Source of the DNA: a virus
Length of the DNA: 42,691 nt
Direction: 5' to 3' (one strand)
IMG/VR virus record: IMGVR_UViG_3300008266_000117
Location: 1 to 42,691 of that record
Shown here piece by piece: positions 6,629-31,689 of this stretch (position 1 is the stretch's first letter; every line of letters starts with the position of its first letter). Below the pieces are notes generated by a model. It did no database searches and had not been told where the DNA came from. It saw nothing but the letters and a program-made list of their open reading frames with translations. The position numbers and the translations under genes were made by a program.

Positions 6629-7363
6629 ATGGAAAAGCCAGAAGAAAGTCGCCTCGTGGTGACGTTCGAAAACTTCCCGCAGGTCAACGTCAGCAAGTCC
6701 AAGGAGGCCGGTCGGCCCATCTTCGACGATCTGGAAGTCTGCCGCATTCGCATGAGCGGCGACCGTCTCAATTCGCCGGTGTTTCCGGCCCACGCCGAAG
6801 CCCCCGGCTTTGTCGAGCGCGAAGACGGCACGACCGAAAAGGTCACCTATGCGCAGAAATTCAATCGTCAGTACCTCGATTTCAAGGCCGGCAAGGCACA
6901 GACGCAGGAAGGCACCCCGCTTTCCGAACTGCCGTTCCTGACGCAGGCAAAGCGCATGGAACTGAAGGCGCTGCACATCCACACCGCCGAATCCCTCGCA
7001 GCCCTCGACGGACAGCCGCTCAAGGCTCTTGGCCAGGGCGGCCGTGAATGGAAGAACCAGGCCCAGGCGTATCTGGATAACGCCGCCGGTTCCGCCAATG
7101 TCACGAAGCTCGCTGCCGAGACGGAATTCTACAAGGCCGAGGTGGAACGCCTTCGTGCCGAGCTTTCGCAGCGCCCGCAGCCTTCCGCCCCGGTTTCGGA
7201 TGACGGCGACGGATCGCCCCCGGCCATTTCGGAATACGAGGATTGGGAAGACGATCTCCTCAAGGAGTTCATCGCGGAGAAGTCTGGCTCCAAGCCCCGC
7301 GGTAACCCTTCGCACAGTACACTAGTGAAAATGGCTGAAGAACTGGCGAACGAGGCCGCATAA
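6629..7363 (+). CDS. Phage structural/assembly protein, unknown
   Basis: 244 residues with SD CAGGAGATTTCACA-ATG. The N-terminal ~100 residues are globular; residues 110-160 hold a helical segment (AKRMELKALHIHTAESLAAL) like the small helix-hairpin-helix-type segments seen in such head proteins. A coiled coil (KLAAETEFYKAEVERLRAELSQ) comes next, then an acidic linker (DDGDGSPPAISEYEDWEDD). It lies between capsid and tail-adaptor genes, where head-completion proteins are found. Its stop overlaps the next start (TAATG). Function unknown. Confidence 0.6.
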   Translation: MEKPEESRLVVTFENFPQVNVSKSKEAGRPIFDDLEVCRIRMSGDRLNSPVFPAHAEAPGFVEREDGTTEKVTYAQKFNRQYLDFKAGKAQTQEGTPLSELPFLTQAKRMELKALHIHTAESLAALDGQPLKALGQGGREWKNQAQAYLDNAAGSANVTKLAAETEFYKAEVERLRAELSQRPQPSAPVSDDGDGSPPAISEYEDWEDDLLKEFIAEKSGSKPRGNPSHSTLVKMAEELANEAA

Positions 7364-8061
7364 TGACGTTTCTTTCAGCTGCACAGTCAGCATCTATCCG
7401 GTTGCTTGGCAGAAAGCCGACGACATTCTTTTCGAGCAGCAACAAGTTCGAAATGGAGATAACCGACCTCGGCAACGAAGTCGTGACGGATATGATGGAA
7501 TACGCTGATTGGCGGCGGCTGACCAAGACACACCAGATGGTGGGGGATGGCACGACCTACGGGTTCGATCTCCCATCAGACTTCTCCCGCATGCCGATCG
7601 GCACCGACATCAGCCGCGCCAACTGGTACACCTGGGGATATATGGATGCGCCAAGCCTGAACTACTGGATGGATCTGGTGAACGGGCTGGCCACTCCCAA
7701 CCCCGGATACTGGATCATCCTTGACGGTCAGGTTCAGTTTCGGCCGGCGGTTTCGGCCGGGACCACCGCGCAATACTTCTACATCAGCAAAAACGCGGTT
7801 CTGGACGCCGATGGCGTGACGCGCAAGGCCGCCTTCACCAGCGATCTGGATACTTTTCTGCTTGACGAGAAGGTTTTGACGCTTGGCATCATCTACAGAT
7901 GGCGGGCGCAAAAGCGCATGGAATACGCGCAGGATTTCGTAAATTATGAAGAGGCCATCGCGCGGTCTTCTAGCTTCGACAAGGGATCCCGAATCATCAC
8001 GAGCGCTCCTCGTTACAACATCGATGCGCGCAATGCGTATCCCCGTCCGTTGGGCTCCTGA
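7363..8061 (+). CDS. Putative head-tail adaptor protein
   Basis: 232 residues, starting in the stop of the previous gene. The size, the start MTFLSAAQSASIRLLGRKP, the motif TYGFDLPSDFSRM and position before the large tail hub protein match the adaptor (P22 gp4-like or T7 gp11-like) group that binds the portal ring. The C-terminal part (YRWRAQKRMEYAQDFVNYEEAIARSS) is a long amphipathic helix, as in adaptor proteins that intercalate between portal subunits. The family call is from length, order and secondary-structure pattern. Confidence 0.6.
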   Translation: MTFLSAAQSASIRLLGRKPTTFFSSSNKFEMEITDLGNEVVTDMMEYADWRRLTKTHQMVGDGTTYGFDLPSDFSRMPIGTDISRANWYTWGYMDAPSLNYWMDLVNGLATPNPGYWIILDGQVQFRPAVSAGTTAQYFYISKNAVLDADGVTRKAAFTSDLDTFLLDEKVLTLGIIYRWRAQKRMEYAQDFVNYEEAIARSSSFDKGSRIITSAPRYNIDARNAYPRPLGS

Positions 8062-27166: not shown

Positions 27167-27302
27167 GGACACTGTCCTCCTGATGTACGAGGGCCAGCCT
27201 CTTGCTTTCAGCAGCCCCATAGGAAGCTCCGAAGCAGATAAGGGCGCCTACGAGAGCGAACGTTCCGACGAGGGCTATCTGGTGGGTGAGGGTGTCACGC
27301 AT
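27150..27302 (-). CDS. Small single-TM protein
   Basis: 50 residues with GGGAG before ATG 27302. TM segment at about 8-28 (QIALVGTFALVGALICFGASYG) and a charged tail. It overlaps its upstream neighbour by 8 nt and the downstream gene by 17 nt. Function unknown. Confidence 0.55.
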   Translation of the reverse strand: MRDTLTHQIALVGTFALVGALICFGASYGAAESKRLALVHQEDSVHVARR

Positions 27303-27858
27303 CTGAAGCTCCCTGATTGAGAGCGGACGCGAGAGCATCCTTTGCCCATGCGATGTTCTCGCCATAGACGCGCTCCATGGCCTGTTCCCAGCCGTGATGC
27401 ATGGCGTCGTATCGGTCGGTGATGCCGCGGTCTTCAAGACCGCATCCCATACCCTGATCGTGATATTCCGGTTCGCCGTCGAGGCAGCGAACGGCTTCTT
27501 CGATCAGGCCGCGCAGTCGGTTGCTCTCCGCGTGAGCGGCTTCGAGTTCAGTATCCTTGGCGGCGATGGCGTTCTCAGCGGCCAATGTGCGGTCAAGCAT
27601 GGTCCCGACATTCGTGCGGGCAGCGGGGTAGCCTGCGCCCTTAATGCCCGCTTCCTCAAGCGCCGCAACTAGCGGGTAAATGTGTTCCGACCAGTTCATG
27701 GTCTGGAACCCGATAATGCTGTTTCGGATATCGTTAATCTTAACGAGCGCCGCATCGTATGCAGCAAGGGTAGCGTCACGCTCTGCGTCATAGCCACAGG
27801 TGCAGGTGTATTCCCGACCCTGGCAAAGACGATCGTGGTCGTTTCTCTGATCACTCAT
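27295..27858 (-). CDS. Hypothetical early protein
   Basis: 187 residues. An N-terminal CTCGYDAERDATLAAYDAALVKIND segment, a helical middle (TLAAENAIAAKDTELEAAHAESNRLRGLIEEAVRCLDGEPE) with coiled-coil character, and a C-terminal region with GWEQAMERVYGENIAWAKDALASAL. No catalytic motif recognised. Confidence 0.65.
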   Translation of the reverse strand: MSDQRNDHDRLCQGREYTCTCGYDAERDATLAAYDAALVKINDIRNSIIGFQTMNWSEHIYPLVAALEEAGIKGAGYPAARTNVGTMLDRTLAAENAIAAKDTELEAAHAESNRLRGLIEEAVRCLDGEPEYHDQGMGCGLEDRGITDRYDAMHHGWEQAMERVYGENIAWAKDALASALNQGASDA

Positions 27859-28084
27859 CCCTTCCTCCTACCGGAAGGGTGGGGGAGGTGGCGGGACGCG
27901 GCCAAATCGTGATAGTCTCGCCGAACTCAAGTGCTTCCCGCACGAACCACAGGACTTCCTCGTCCGTGTCGAACGGGACGTGGGTGCGGCACAGATGACC
28001 GTCAGCGTCGCGCGTCTCAGCTTGCCAGCCAGCCTTGCGGACTTCCTCGCTGGTCTGGAGATTGACCGGGTTCGGGTTTTTCAT
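27851..28084 (-). CDS. Hypothetical early protein
   Basis: 77 residues, mixed alpha/beta, with AGWQAETRDADGHLCRTHVPFDTDEEVLWFVREALEFGETITIWP. Overlaps both neighbours (8 and 4 nt). Function unknown. Confidence 0.65.
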   Translation of the reverse strand: MKNPNPVNLQTSEEVRKAGWQAETRDADGHLCRTHVPFDTDEEVLWFVREALEFGETITIWPRPATSPTLPVGGRDE

Positions 28085-28476
28085 CGCACTTCTCCCTCAG
28101 CAAGAGAGGCACCACGGGGAAGGGTGTCGATGTAGGCGAGCAAGCGTCGCTCGTGGGTGGCGGGGTAGACGGACGAGCGCATGAACGCCGGCTTGCGGAA
28201 ATCTGCCCGACCTTCGCGCATGCCCTGTTCTTCCTCGGCAAAGGCGCGGGAAGCATCATCGCTGGCCTCGATCTCGGAGGCGATGCGCTCGAACAGCATT
28301 CGGTTGAATGTACCCTTGAGCATGTTCTCGCGGGTCAGGGTCGGCCCCTTGTCAAAGGTGATCGACGTGACGTAGAATTCGCCCGGGTATCCGTCACCAG
28401 CGCTTTCGAGCGTTGCGGTTCCGGAGGCATACAGGCCTTCACCCATCAGGTGGATTTGGTCGAATTGATAGTCCAT
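28081..28476 (-). CDS. Hypothetical early protein
   Basis: 131 residues from ATG 28476, which sits in the preceding stop (TGATG). An N-terminal beta-rich part (GTATLESAGDGYPGEFYVTSITFDKGPTLTR) precedes an acidic helical stretch (RIASEIEASDDASRAFAEEEQGM). Function unknown. Confidence 0.65.
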   Translation of the reverse strand: MDYQFDQIHLMGEGLYASGTATLESAGDGYPGEFYVTSITFDKGPTLTRENMLKGTFNRMLFERIASEIEASDDASRAFAEEEQGMREGRADFRKPAFMRSSVYPATHERRLLAYIDTLPRGASLAEGEVR

Positions 28477-28916: not shown

Positions 28917-29156
28917 TCAGTCTTGAGAGATGACTTCGAGAACGCGCTTATCGAAATCTGCCTGCGCGAATTCCTGCGCCGCGTCTAAACTGGCGTGAGA
29001 CGACTTCAGCTCGGACGACCCGTCATGTTTCGTAAGGATGAAAAGCTCTTCATCGGAACTTTCATCGTCGATGGAGTAGCCAAGGCCGACGCCGTAAGCG
29101 GTCCAACCCACATATTCGTCACCATCCCATTCAAGCGGTTTGACCTTGACTGCCAT
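28917..29156 (-). CDS. Hypothetical early protein
   Basis: 79 residues. ATG 29156 (MAVKVKPLEWDGDEY) has GGAG six bases before it; the ATG six bases upstream has no spacing. The VKVKPLEW...Y-x-I...FAQADFDKRV pattern is a common small phage protein of unknown function. Confidence 0.7.
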   Translation of the reverse strand: MAVKVKPLEWDGDEYVGWTAYGVGLGYSIDDESSDEELFILTKHDGSSELKSSHASLDAAQEFAQADFDKRVLEVISQD

Positions 29157-29207
29157 CTTCATCTCCAGTTCCGTTTATCGATCTGGTCTTGCAGACCGGT
29201 GGGGGTT

Positions 29208-29549
29208 TCAGGCGCGTTCTGCAAAAATGCCGTGATCGACGCAGGGGTGGCCATTGGTTGTCAGGATGCCGCAGACCCCGATTTTCCCACCCTTTGAGTT
29301 CACGAACTCGACAGTGTAATCTCTGTCTGATGGACGAAGGTTCCCGTCCGTCGTGTAGACCTCACAGTCCCAACCGCTGACATCAAAGCCGCTTCCGTTA
29401 AGTTCCCTCACTGCGTACCGATAAAGGCGCGACACGAGCCCACGGCTGATTTCGGCGTCCGTCTCGTGAAGCTCGTAAGGCAACTTTTGGCTTGCCATGT
29501 CGAACCGAGCAGGCCCGCGCTGTAGAACGGTTGATCTCAATTCGGTCAT
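29208..29549 (-). CDS. First gene of the leftward early operon, unknown
   Basis: 113 residues with SD GAGGAG before ATG 29549; a longer frame through the operators was rejected. N-terminal TELRSTVLQRGPARFDMASQKLPYELHETD, then a compact alpha/beta body (SRLYRYAVRELNGSGFDVSG, TVEFVNSKGGKIGVCGILTTNG). It is the first gene behind the repressor-controlled promoter at 29599-29627, so it is expressed earliest; unrecognised phage anti-host or regulatory proteins often occupy this position. Confidence 0.65.
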   Translation of the reverse strand: MTELRSTVLQRGPARFDMASQKLPYELHETDAEISRGLVSRLYRYAVRELNGSGFDVSGWDCEVYTTDGNLRPSDRDYTVEFVNSKGGKIGVCGILTTNGHPCVDHGIFAERA

Positions 29550-29598
29550 CGTCTTCTCCTCGTTTGCGAAGGTCTTGCCTCGCTGTGGTGTTGAGGAG

Positions 29599-29627
29599 AT
29601 AGTTGCAGAAAATGCCACCGCTTGCAA
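29599..29627 (-). promoter_or_regulatory. Leftward early promoter
   Basis: On the minus strand, TTGCAA (29627-29622), 17 bp, then AACTAT (29604-29599), 50 bp before the first leftward gene. An operator copy (29601-29619) fills the spacer and overlaps the -10, as expected for a repressed early promoter. Confidence 0.6.
29601..29619. promoter_or_regulatory. Operator OL1
   Basis: AGTTGCA-GAAAA-TGCCACC: the 7-5-7 imperfect palindrome shared with four other sites (consensus AGTnGCA-N5-TGCnACT). It lies in the spacer of the leftward promoter. Confidence 0.7.
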
Positions 29628-29643: not shown

Positions 29644-29662
29644 AGTCGCAGAAAATGCAACT
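29644..29662. promoter_or_regulatory. Operator OL2
   Basis: AGTCGCA-GAAAA-TGCAACT, centred 43 bp (about four helical turns) upstream of OL1, suggesting cooperative binding on the same DNA face. Confidence 0.7.
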
Positions 29663-29699
29663 TTCTTATTGGCGTCCCGGAATCAATGATGTAGAAAGG

Positions 29700-29731
29700 A
29701 AAAACCCCGCAAGCATTTGAGTGCTTCGGGG
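29700..29731 (-). terminator. Leftward Rho-independent terminator
   Basis: On the minus strand CCCCG-AAGCA pairs with TGCTT-(G)-CGGGG around a 6-nt loop and is followed by TTTTT. It would end leftward transcripts from the repressor gene before they reach the early promoter. Confidence 0.75.
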
Positions 29732-29751
29732 TCCGACTGGTGAAATAAGGT

Positions 29752-29780
29752 TTGGCGACCGATACCAGTAGCGATGTTAT
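29752..29780 (+). promoter_or_regulatory. Candidate promoter for structured RNA 1
   Basis: TTGGCG, 17 bp, TGTTAT on the plus strand; predicted start near 29787, 25 nt before the first helix of the structured region. Confidence 0.4.
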
Positions 29781-29786
29781 AGCATT

Positions 29787-30097
29787 ACATTCGCTCGTTG
29801 CCAAGCCACTTGATACGATCCGGGGCCGTTGGTAGTCGTCGTATCAGGGTGAGTGCTAGACGAGGCACGGCGAGCGGTTCACCGGCAATCAGGTGAAAGG
29901 GCAGGCGCAAGCACTAAGGGACCAGGCACCCTGCGCATGAGGCGATCCGAAGCCGATAGAAACCTGGTATGAGACGTGAAGGTACGCCCCGTCATATGGT
30001 GGCGAACGTCTCTGCATGACGGGAACCTCGGATACTCAATCGAGTGCCAGCATGCAAAGCGCCTAGGGCTGGTTAACTCCGGTCCCTAGGGCTTTTT
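29787..30097 (+). ncRNA. Structured non-coding RNA candidate 1
   Basis: No credible reading frame. Perfect complementary segments: 29812-29818 with 29839-29845; 29846-29851 with 29927-29932, stacked on 29852-29857 with 29910-29915; hairpin 29878-29883 with 29892-29897; 29921-29926 with 29963-29968; 29971-29977 with 30006-30012; 29988-29995 with 30016-30023 (8 bp). The second and fourth sets cross, and the last two cross, giving two pseudoknots. A terminator hairpin closes the 3' end. It lies between the operators of the two early promoters. Not recognised as a known family; strand inferred from promoter and terminator. Confidence 0.7.
30062..30097 (+). terminator. Terminator of structured RNA 1
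   Basis: CCTAGGG (30062-30068) pairs with CCCTAGG (30084-30090) across a 15-nt loop; TTTTT follows at 30093. On the minus strand there is no U-run, so it works rightward. Confidence 0.75.
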
Positions 30098-30297
30098 GCG
30101 CCCGTATTCCTGAAGCCTAATCGTTGCCAGACACTAACTAAGATAACTCTAGATATAACAGGTATATGGGTTAAAAGCAGCTTTAACACTCAACTTTGAG
30201 TTTTGAACCATCTCGTTCAATTTCTTGCGATTGGTATTTTACTACTTGCTAAATCGCGCGCCGATCCTAAGGTTTAGATCAAAAGGCGGAGGAAACG
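30098..30297. other. AT-rich gap between RNA 1 and the repressor region
   Basis: No gene supported. This is the most AT-rich stretch of the window (tracts such as TAACTAAGATAACTCTAGATAT) and includes a short inverted repeat CTCAA-C-TTTGAG near 30188. A TTGCGA-N18-CTAAAT promoter-like pair lies at about 30225-30255, facing right. No iterons were found. Confidence 0.5.
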
Positions 30298-30582
30298 ATG
30301 GGATGTGCACAGCGAAGTCGCATAGACGAACACATAGAACAGATGACTTTCGAGGAAATCCAGGCATTCAAGACTGTTGTCAGTTGCCTTGAATGCCCTT
30401 TCTGCGATTCTTGCCTGACCTCGCGGCGCTTGTTTCAGCAATCTCTCTGGCAACTTGCTGATGCTTCTTCGAGAGAGCATCAACGCGCTCAAGAATGCCA
30501 GATCCGTCGCGCTTCACGCGTGGGAATGCAGTTTCCAGTACCGTGCGGATCTTCTGAAGCTCGTCCAGAGACCTCTCTTTAA
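30298..30582 (+). CDS. Doubtful ORF antisense to the repressor gene end
   Basis: 94 codons with a strong SD (GGCGGAGGAAACG-ATG) and a Cys-rich start (IQAFKTVVSCLECPFCDSCL). From codon 28 it runs antisense to the repressor gene, where composition becomes shadow-like. The SD argues for some translation, perhaps a short product or a regulatory leader; the antisense overlap argues against a full gene. Confidence 0.25.
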   Translation: MGCAQRSRIDEHIEQMTFEEIQAFKTVVSCLECPFCDSCLTSRRLFQQSLWQLADASSREHQRAQECQIRRASRVGMQFPVPCGSSEARPETSL

Positions 30583-30871
30583 AGAAATCCGAAATCCAGT
30601 CCATTTCCGGCGGCCGGAGCAGCGCTCCGGGGTCATCTTCAAAGCCAAGTGCGGCGGCGATACGCTCCTGCATGGCCGGCTGCGGGAGCTGACCTTTTAG
30701 CCAGCGGTATACCTGGCTCTTGTCGATGAACTGATATTCGCTCGACCGGTCTGGATCGTTCAACGCCTCCAGAAGCTCAACAGGCGTCATATCCTTAGCC
30801 TCAAGCCACTCCGCAATGAAGTGACGCCGGATCGGCTGCTTGTTCTGATGTATTTTCGTTGGCTTGGTCAT
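30380..30871 (-). CDS. Lysogeny repressor (HTH, CI-like)
   Basis: 163 residues from ATG 30871 (an in-frame ATG at 30889, inside the proximal operator, is the alternative). The N-terminal domain has an XRE-type HTH (RHFIAEWLEAKDMTPVELLEALND...IDKSQVYRWLKGQLPQPAMQERIAAALGF). The rest is a helical region (SLDELQKIRTVLETAF, VDALSKKHQQVAREIAE) suited to oligomerisation. There is no S24/LexA-type autocleavage domain. Divergent from the Cro-like gene with three operators between them, it is the probable keeper of lysogeny. Confidence 0.75.
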   Translation of the reverse strand: MTKPTKIHQNKQPIRRHFIAEWLEAKDMTPVELLEALNDPDRSSEYQFIDKSQVYRWLKGQLPQPAMQERIAAALGFEDDPGALLRPPEMDWISDFFKERSLDELQKIRTVLETAFPRVKRDGSGILERVDALSKKHQQVAREIAETSAARSGKNRRKGIQGN

Positions 30872-30940: not shown

Positions 30941-30959
30941 AGTGGCATTTTCTGCCACT
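30941..30959. promoter_or_regulatory. Operator OR1
   Basis: AGTGGCA-TTTTC-TGCCACT, a perfect 7-5-7 palindrome, nine bases before the Cro-like start and overlapping the likely rightward promoter (TTTACA at 30933-30938). Confidence 0.75.
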
Positions 30960-30967
30960 GATAGGTT

Positions 30968-31216
30968 ATGAGCAAGCAAACGGCTTTCCCCAACTTCAGA
31001 AAGAACAACGGTATGACCCTCGACAGGGTCGCCGAACTTTTCAAGGTCGATCGCACCACGATATTGCGATGGGAGAAGGGCGAGCCCCCCGTCCCAATCA
31101 AGCGTCTGGCTGAGATCGAAACTCTGACCGGGATCTCGAAAGAGGACCTTCGGCCGGATGTTTTCGGAAAGACCGTTAAGACGTCGAAATCGAAGCAAGC
31201 CGAGGCTGCACAATGA
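30968..31216 (+). CDS. Cro-like HTH regulator
   Basis: 82 residues. NNGMTLDRVAELFKVDRTTILRWEKGEPPVPIKRLAEIETLTGIS, in parts, is a clear XRE/Cro HTH with recognition helix at TTILRWEKG. It lies downstream of the perfect operator OR1 and is the first gene of the rightward operon, so it should turn off the repressor during lytic growth. Almost no leader is left between promoter and ATG; the SD is poor (AGG two bases away), so the message may be leaderless. Confidence 0.75.
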   Translation: MSKQTAFPNFRKNNGMTLDRVAELFKVDRTTILRWEKGEPPVPIKRLAEIETLTGISKEDLRPDVFGKTVKTSKSKQAEAAQ

Positions 31217-31689
31217 TCTATTTCCTGCAGTGCGGCCATGACGGACCGATCAAGATCGGCTTCACGACTGGAAGCGTGGTCTGGCGGATACGCCAGCTTC
31301 AGCATACGTCGCCACACATCCTGAACCTTATCGGTGCCCATGAGGGTGGCAGGGAAGACGAGACGATCCTTCACAAGCAATTTGCAGACAGAAAACACCG
31401 TGGCGAGTGGTTTAACCCGTGCCAGGAAATCTTCGCTCACATCGAAAGCAGAGGCGGACTCGCCGATTACAACCGGCTTGAGAGACCAGACTTGAAGGCG
31501 GCTCTCCGAAGTGCCGAGCGGAAGAAATGGCCAGTTGAAATCAATGAATTCTTCAAAAGCCTCCGTCGCAAATATCCTCGCGAAATCGGTATGTGGCAAG
31601 AGGGGATGCGGCCTATAGCGCCGCGCATTTCGGAACAACTTCAAGAGGTTGTCTCCAAAGCAAAGCAATCAGAGGCAGCCGAACTATGA
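31213..31689 (+). CDS. GIY-YIG-family (MUG113/T5orf172-like) protein 2
   Basis: 158 residues, starting in the Cro-like stop (ATGA). MIYFLQCGHDGPIKIGFTTGSVVWRIRQLQ, then DETILHKQFADRKHRGEWF, shows the same family signature as the protein at 20545-21084: KIG, Arg helix, a Glu (DETILHKQF) and a closing EWF. The two proteins are distant. Second gene of the lytic operon; a DNA-cleaving role is inferred from family. Confidence 0.75.
   Translation: MIYFLQCGHDGPIKIGFTTGSVVWRIRQLQHTSPHILNLIGAHEGGREDETILHKQFADRKHRGEWFNPCQEIFAHIESRGGLADYNRLERPDLKAALRSAERKKWPVEINEFFKSLRRKYPREIGMWQEGMRPIAPRISEQLQEVVSKAKQSEAAEL

Follow-up and report, generated by a model that had tools for sequence, protein, structure and literature searches.

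A pseudoknotted RNA family beside the immunity repressor gene of temperate rhizobial phages

The gap between the left early gene block and the immunity repressor gene of a temperate phage raises the question of what is encoded there. The phage is represented by a whole virus record of 42,691 bases (IMGVR_UViG_3300008266_000117), referred to here as the window. Its leftward block holds the integrase, NinB, single-strand binding protein, Rad52 and exonuclease genes. Coding is excluded for the gap because no open reading frame (ORF) of at least 50 amino acids lies between 29805 and 30224. A sequence-only reading had instead placed a pseudoknotted RNA with its own promoter and terminator at 29787-30097, in the immunity region. 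This is the lysogeny control point of the phage. New large RNA classes with so interlocked a fold are rare, and earlier ones repeatedly proved to be catalytic, to sense ligands or to belong to ribonucleoprotein machines.

Homologues and fold of the RNA

Taken alone, the window could not show such an RNA. Its fold energy differs weakly from that of shuffled sequences (z about -1.8), and helix packing that allows pseudoknots reaches z -1.4, with 9 of 100 shuffles equally good. The 5' part (29700-29815), mostly outside the span first proposed, folds at z -3.6. Homologues were needed because the sequence alone is not convincingly better folded than its shuffles.

Homologues were sought by DNA, pattern and covariance-model searches, with a covariance model built from four sequences and patterns taken from invariant segments. 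When the DNA of the RNA was compared with 395 genomes from one bacterial family, the family to which an Aquamicrobium genome belongs, G032 (E 7e-16) and G334 (E 6e-14) matched significantly, and a third, weak match, G118, turned out to be real. In G032 a relative of the window's repressor gene lies next to the match and converges on it as in the window. The covariance-model search that the sequence-only reading had advised retrieved relatives at E 1e-21 to 1e-37, each from a different phage record, and each of 15 records searched contains a single copy. Approximately 20 phage or prophage records carry relatives, and those placed in genomes all belong to one rhizobial family. Its occurrence is scattered: 1 of 35 genomes of one host genus and 1 of 13 of another contain the RNA, and exact pattern search found it in none of 382 genomes of the class; therefore, it travels with phages. 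BLAST of the window RNA or its relatives against GenBank phages and plasmids gave no match. A search via the repressor protein found no relative in viral contigs, and the RNA had no match in the two genomes with repressor relatives, L083 and L084. Searching 397 genomes from the order with the model yielded two weak matches (24-25 bits) that were judged to be chance, and the pattern matches L177-L179 were rejected for want of a covariance-model match.

The structure was tested as 12 helices, with the pseudoknots written out, on 16 sequences aligned by sequence and not fitted to the structure. Covariation in related phages, on which the sequence-only reading had staked its proposal, is present as compensatory (double-sided) change in 33 of 49 pairs. 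The covariation score is 0.459, compared with 0.145 +/- 0.013 in shuffled alignments and at most 0.067 with the partners slid; the slide control favours the structure somewhat, as the structure was read from these same sequences, whereas the shuffle control and the pair-type count are independent of that. Paired cells amount to 89.3%, compared with 70.4% after shuffling. A structure-blind scan of all column pairs returns the same helices at the top. The weak energy tests of the window would suit a chance pairing, or an element acting only at the DNA level, but covariation far above both controls refutes chance for the core, and relatives found later share the same RNA architecture, so that this explanation is left with a next to negligible probability. 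A fold supported by covariation in diverged homologues is what characterizes an independent family of structured noncoding RNA, and from these alignments the family is almost certainly real.

Several helices interlock, giving multiple pseudoknots in one RNA (Table 1). The 5' domain, with the Pb/Pc pseudoknot and the Pd hairpin, is common to relatives of the window's subtype. Its pseudoknot shows compensatory differences (ACTGGT/ACCAGT versus ACTGGA/TCCAGT, and ACTGGATG/TATCCAGT), and Pc is re-formed in L181 and L123. P2 of the window pairs one column off the alignment. In the H-type pseudoknot, the loop of the short stem holds the 5' strand of 29922-26/29963-67, which is the best covarying helix (CCAGG/CCTGG, CCGTG/CACGG, TCTGG/CCAGA, CTGCG/CGCAG, GTCCG/CGGAC and GCAAG/CTTGC). 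The P4-loop pairing comprises 4 bp in 15 relatives (CCTG/CAGG, CCAG/CTGG, CCAC/GTGG, CCCC/GGGG, CCTC/GAGG and CACC/GGTG) and is reduced to 2 bp, CC/GG, in the window. Moreover, the unpaired motifs AUAGAAAC, CAUAUG and GGGGAUG are conserved in most members. A GGAAAC/GTTTCC pairing that would close the 3' domain was considered and kept as tentative: it is mostly invariant, with one compensatory case (L180) and several mismatches. The RNA is small enough to suit structural studies, for which a supported helix map is available.

Table 1. Coordinates of the RNA features and neighbouring elements in the window
Feature	Position	Strand	Remarks
Left operator copy 1	29602-29618	+	GTTGCAGAAAATGCCAC; differs at 1 position from the copy on the right side (30942-30958); chance expectation 0.11 matches
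Left operator copy 2	29645-29661	+	Just upstream of the -35 of the putative RNA promoter
Promoter-like element	29669-29697	+	TTGGCG-17-TAGAAA; predicted start about 29704; consensus match only
5' hairpin Pa	29704-29732	+	ACCCCG/CGGGGT plus inner pairs
5' pseudoknot	29736-29807	+	Pb 29736-42/29763-69 crossed by Pc 29749-59/29797-807, with hairpin Pd 29770-74/29791-95
Helix P1	29836-40/29859-63	+	Loop holds the P2 5' strand; both sides changed in 4/5 pairs
Helix P2	29853-57/29910-14	+	Pseudoknotted with P1 and P5; both sides changed in 5/5 pairs
Hairpin P3	29878-83/29892-97	+	Comparative alignment
Helix P5	29905-08/29933-36	+	Crosses P2; GCGC/GCGC, CTGGC/GCCAG, CGAGC/GCTCG, CAGGC/GCCTG
H-type pseudoknot	29917-29967	+	Stem 29917-20/29929-32 plus stem 29922-26/29963-67
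Hairpin P4	29941-43/29952-54 (region 29941-29982)	+	Loop pairs downstream inside P6a
Helix P6a	29974-77/30006-09	+	Encloses hairpin P6b 29985-88/30001-04, conserved loop CATATG
Hairpin P7	30034-37/30042-45	+	Comparative alignment
Direct repeat copy 1	30038-30050	+	AATCGAGTGCCAG; covarying
3' hairpin P8 and T run	30061-30097	+	P8 = 30061-68/30084-92; direct reading
Direct repeat copy 2	30119-30130	+	AATCGTTGCCAG; behind a conserved GTTTCC-like motif (window GTATTCC)
HTH repressor-like gene	30380-30871	-	Converges on the RNA
cro-like gene	30968-31213	+	

The pseudoknotted RNA that the sequence-only reading had claimed is thus borne out by covariation among relatives, with a revised set of helices. 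The four helices that it had combined into two pseudoknots (29846-51/29927-32 with 29921-26/29963-68, and 29971-77/30006-12 with 29988-95/30016-23) are all perfectly Watson-Crick paired in the window. From the first pseudoknot, 29921-26/29963-68 covaries strongly, but 29846-51/29927-32 (38 of 90 cells, about chance) gives way to the short stem of the H-type pseudoknot. From the second, the inner four pairs of 29971-77/30006-12 are conserved, but 29988-95/30016-23 occurs only in near relatives. The proposed opening helix 29811-18/29839-46 exists in the sequence but is peculiar to the window (31 of 120 cells) and is replaced by P1 in the family.

The absence of a known family, also part of the earlier claim, holds. 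Rfam 15, including GOLLD, ROOL, HEARO, introns, ribozymes and riboswitches, gives no gathering-level match in the window, and nothing meaningful appears at a permissive E-value in the window or in nine loci holding relatives. ARAGORN finds no tmRNA or tRNA in the window, and a limited literature search yielded no description of the RNA family. The RNA was filed as a new class, a previously unlisted family whose mechanism may be of a known type. GOLLD and ROOL are ornate large RNAs of phages and bacteria, elaborately folded like the RNA described here and likewise without a settled function (PMC12286853). The new RNA differs from them in its size of approximately 400 nt, its other host group, its place in the operator/repressor region and its lack of an Rfam match.

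Ends, promoter and gene neighbourhood

The RNA spans approximately 29704-30100 (roughly 400 nt) and very probably starts near 29704, not at 29787 as first proposed; sequence conservation continues beyond the 3' hairpin to approximately 30130. Most relatives carry TTGNNN, a spacer of 16-18 nt and NANNNN at the place matching the promoter-like element of the window, among them TTGCAA-17-TATAGA, TTGACT-17-CATAAA and TTGACG-18-TATGCC. The RNA promoter is probably TTGGCG-17-TAGAAA, upstream of the left hairpin Pa. Because this putative promoter stands upstream of Pa, the hairpin, which is present as described and had been read as a leftward-facing terminator bounding the locus, is likely the 5' end of the RNA and only secondarily a leftward terminator. 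The sequence supports an independent transcription unit, with its promoter now placed outside that hairpin. At the other end, the hairpin and T run taken for a strong rightward terminator are both found in the window; P8 is kept in relatives, but the T run is not, and many relatives read GGGATTACTGCG there.

The window contains the operator consensus GTGGCAGAAAATGCCAC three times, at 29602, 29645 and 30942. Repeated palindromes are found at the same left-hand place in L118, L119, L129 and L130 and recur on the right side in L118, L129 and L130, which suggests that the arrangement is general. The sequence suggests that the RNA promoter adjoins the left operator, diverges from the left early promoter and the recombination genes, and points at the repressor gene.

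The layout of the relatives is constant in kind and not in family, with recombination genes on one side and a repressor gene on the opposite strand on the other. Such a repressor, of the window's type or other types, is present in most relatives with enough flank. The position between left early genes and repressor, noted in the sequence-only reading, is kept in RNA-carrying relatives with different repressors. The close relative L002 has the same left genes, a different immunity segment and no RNA. Short and mostly intergenic stretches of the window (29153-29202, 29547-29601, 28095-28137, 27853-27894 and 27193-27303) are 97-100% identical to L002 and sit between genes otherwise diverged or replaced, as if they were linkers for cassette exchange. 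A perfect 10-bp inverted repeat, GGCATTCAAG/CTTGAATGCC, at 30350-30410 spans the repressor stop codon and is possibly the end of the repressor transcript.

Expression and possible mode of action

The preferred explanation is a stand-alone structured noncoding RNA of approximately 400 nt, a new family and an accessory element of rhizobial temperate phages, transcribed from the operator region and working in trans together with a host component for the benefit of the lysogen; we consider this account evenly balanced between right and wrong. Transcription would start at the promoter that adjoins the left operator and run in the direction opposite to left early transcription. The RNA could be made with repressor bound because the operator lies upstream of the -35 element and not over it, and the prophage could produce it under conditions that silence the left early promoter. 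It is the geometry of the operators that points to expression in the prophage. The RNA may then help the lysogen in establishment, maintenance or exclusion, and we infer, as the sequence-only reading did, a role in lysogeny or expression from the prophage. Action in trans via a host component, as a regulator or decoy, would be expected because the analysis revealed neither a conserved partner or downstream gene nor an antisense target.

The proteins shared by eight carrier phages include no common partner beyond general phage genes, and no RNA-guided effector gene was recognised among them. A GIY-YIG/MUG113 protein was considered as a partner, being near-universal by ORF clustering, but was rejected, as its profile occurs in 3 of 14 RNA records and in 5 of 27 others. 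In the window, a GIY-YIG (MUG113/T5orf172) gene (31213-31686) directly follows the cro-like gene.

A different account makes the RNA the 5' region of an mRNA that controls a small downstream cargo gene in a riboswitch- or antitermination-like manner, with the 3' hairpin as an attenuator. Such a leader role is possible in approximately ten relatives because a same-strand ORF with a good ribosome-binding site follows the RNA there, mostly 154-220 nt past the core (268 nt in the window), and the conservation past the 3' hairpin and the unconserved T run are in keeping with it. Against it, L121, L138 and L180 contain no downstream ORF with a Shine-Dalgarno sequence. The downstream ORFs are mostly unrelated, with relatedness only in L104/L119, L116, L130 and L143, and four of them gave no PHROG match when scanned. 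The conserved same-strand gene or gene class that would mark a riboswitch or cis leader was not found downstream, and a leader function is doubtful. HK022 put and Bacillus EAR are antitermination RNAs, and they resemble the new RNA as structured RNAs with which a phage or bacterial transcription unit begins. In contrast, no long operon follows the new RNA, and the next genes mostly face the other way. Separately, in L104 and L116 an inverted repeat, ATAGCG/CGCTAT, encloses the ribosome-binding site of the small downstream gene approximately 160 nt past the RNA core and is a possible translational switch.

The best reading of these data ranks a stand-alone trans-acting RNA ahead of a cis leader, antisense control and a ribozyme or mobile RNA. 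Besides the ORFs that follow the RNA in some relatives, two observations do not favour the stand-alone RNA: the window lacks one covarying helix of the family, its P4-loop pairing being reduced to 2 bp, and the model does not account for the covariation of a direct repeat.

A covarying direct repeat

Most phages carry, after P7, a segment of approximately 12 nt that is almost the same as the segment behind GTTTCC past the 3' hairpin, and its sequence differs widely between phages. The summed score of the two copies is 135.6, compared with 93.8 +/- 5.2 for permuted pairs, and none of 20,000 permutations scored as high. Copy 1 contains a hairpin and is mostly one nucleotide longer in the middle than copy 2. 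The pattern recurs with new sequences in the later-found L180 and L181 (CTCAAAGGACAGG/CTCAAGGACAGG and CTCAAGTGGCAGA/CTCAGTGGCAGA). No consistent complement of the repeat was found within +-480 nt, and no further copies were found on either strand in eight carrier phages. An exact pattern search of the host genome G032 found the complement only at these sites themselves; these target searches leave room for shorter or imperfect targets.

The repeat bears on antisense control. The repressor mRNA, made from the opposite strand, would carry the complement of copy 2 in its 3' part, and copy 1 in the RNA would pair with it. The RNA and the repressor gene converge, the two copies covary as they would have to if the transcripts ended on opposite sides of the hairpin and paired, and the sole repeat complements in the G032 genome are these sites. 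This pairing is nevertheless improbable: in relatives the hairpin has no T run at which leftward transcription could terminate, one central nucleotide sets the copies apart, other genes intervene in some relatives, and the model has no need of the elaborate core. P4 CI RNA, P1 c4 and lambda OOP are immunity-region small RNAs that are short and antisense or processed. The new RNA likewise comes from the immunity/control region of a temperate phage, but it is long and pseudoknotted, and no complementary target of that type was identified in eight carrier phages or in the host genome G032.

Another interpretation treats the repeat as an address. The scaffold RNA would recognise, through its 3' copy 1, copy 2 behind GTTTCC in DNA or in a nascent transcript, as a self-addressed phage RNA or as a ribozyme acting at repeat-flanked sites, a kind previously undescribed; its chances seem slim. 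TldR proteins are phage repressors (PMC13418256). The guide RNAs of TnpB/IscB and TldR resemble the new RNA in that a scaffold is followed on the 3' side by a short sequence specific to the phage, which appears again after a constant motif, here GTTTCC. The within-phage repeat is significant; its copies are one nucleotide apart, copy 1 contains a hairpin, and no effector gene was recognised among the proteins shared by eight carrier phages.

Self-processing or movement at the repeat-flanked 3' segment, as by a ribozyme or mobile RNA element, would be in line with a complex pseudoknotted fold with invariant unpaired motifs and with direct repeats nearly identical within each phage. It is highly improbable, as no Rfam ribozyme or intron family matches and, unlike a mobile element, the RNA occurs as a single copy per phage at a fixed place. 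The covarying repeat offers a direct mutational test. Apart from this repeat, L105 contains a gene rich in tandem repeats of the GRWGAATASGDQGAATAS type (7241-7762), close to the early genes of the RNA-carrying prophage.
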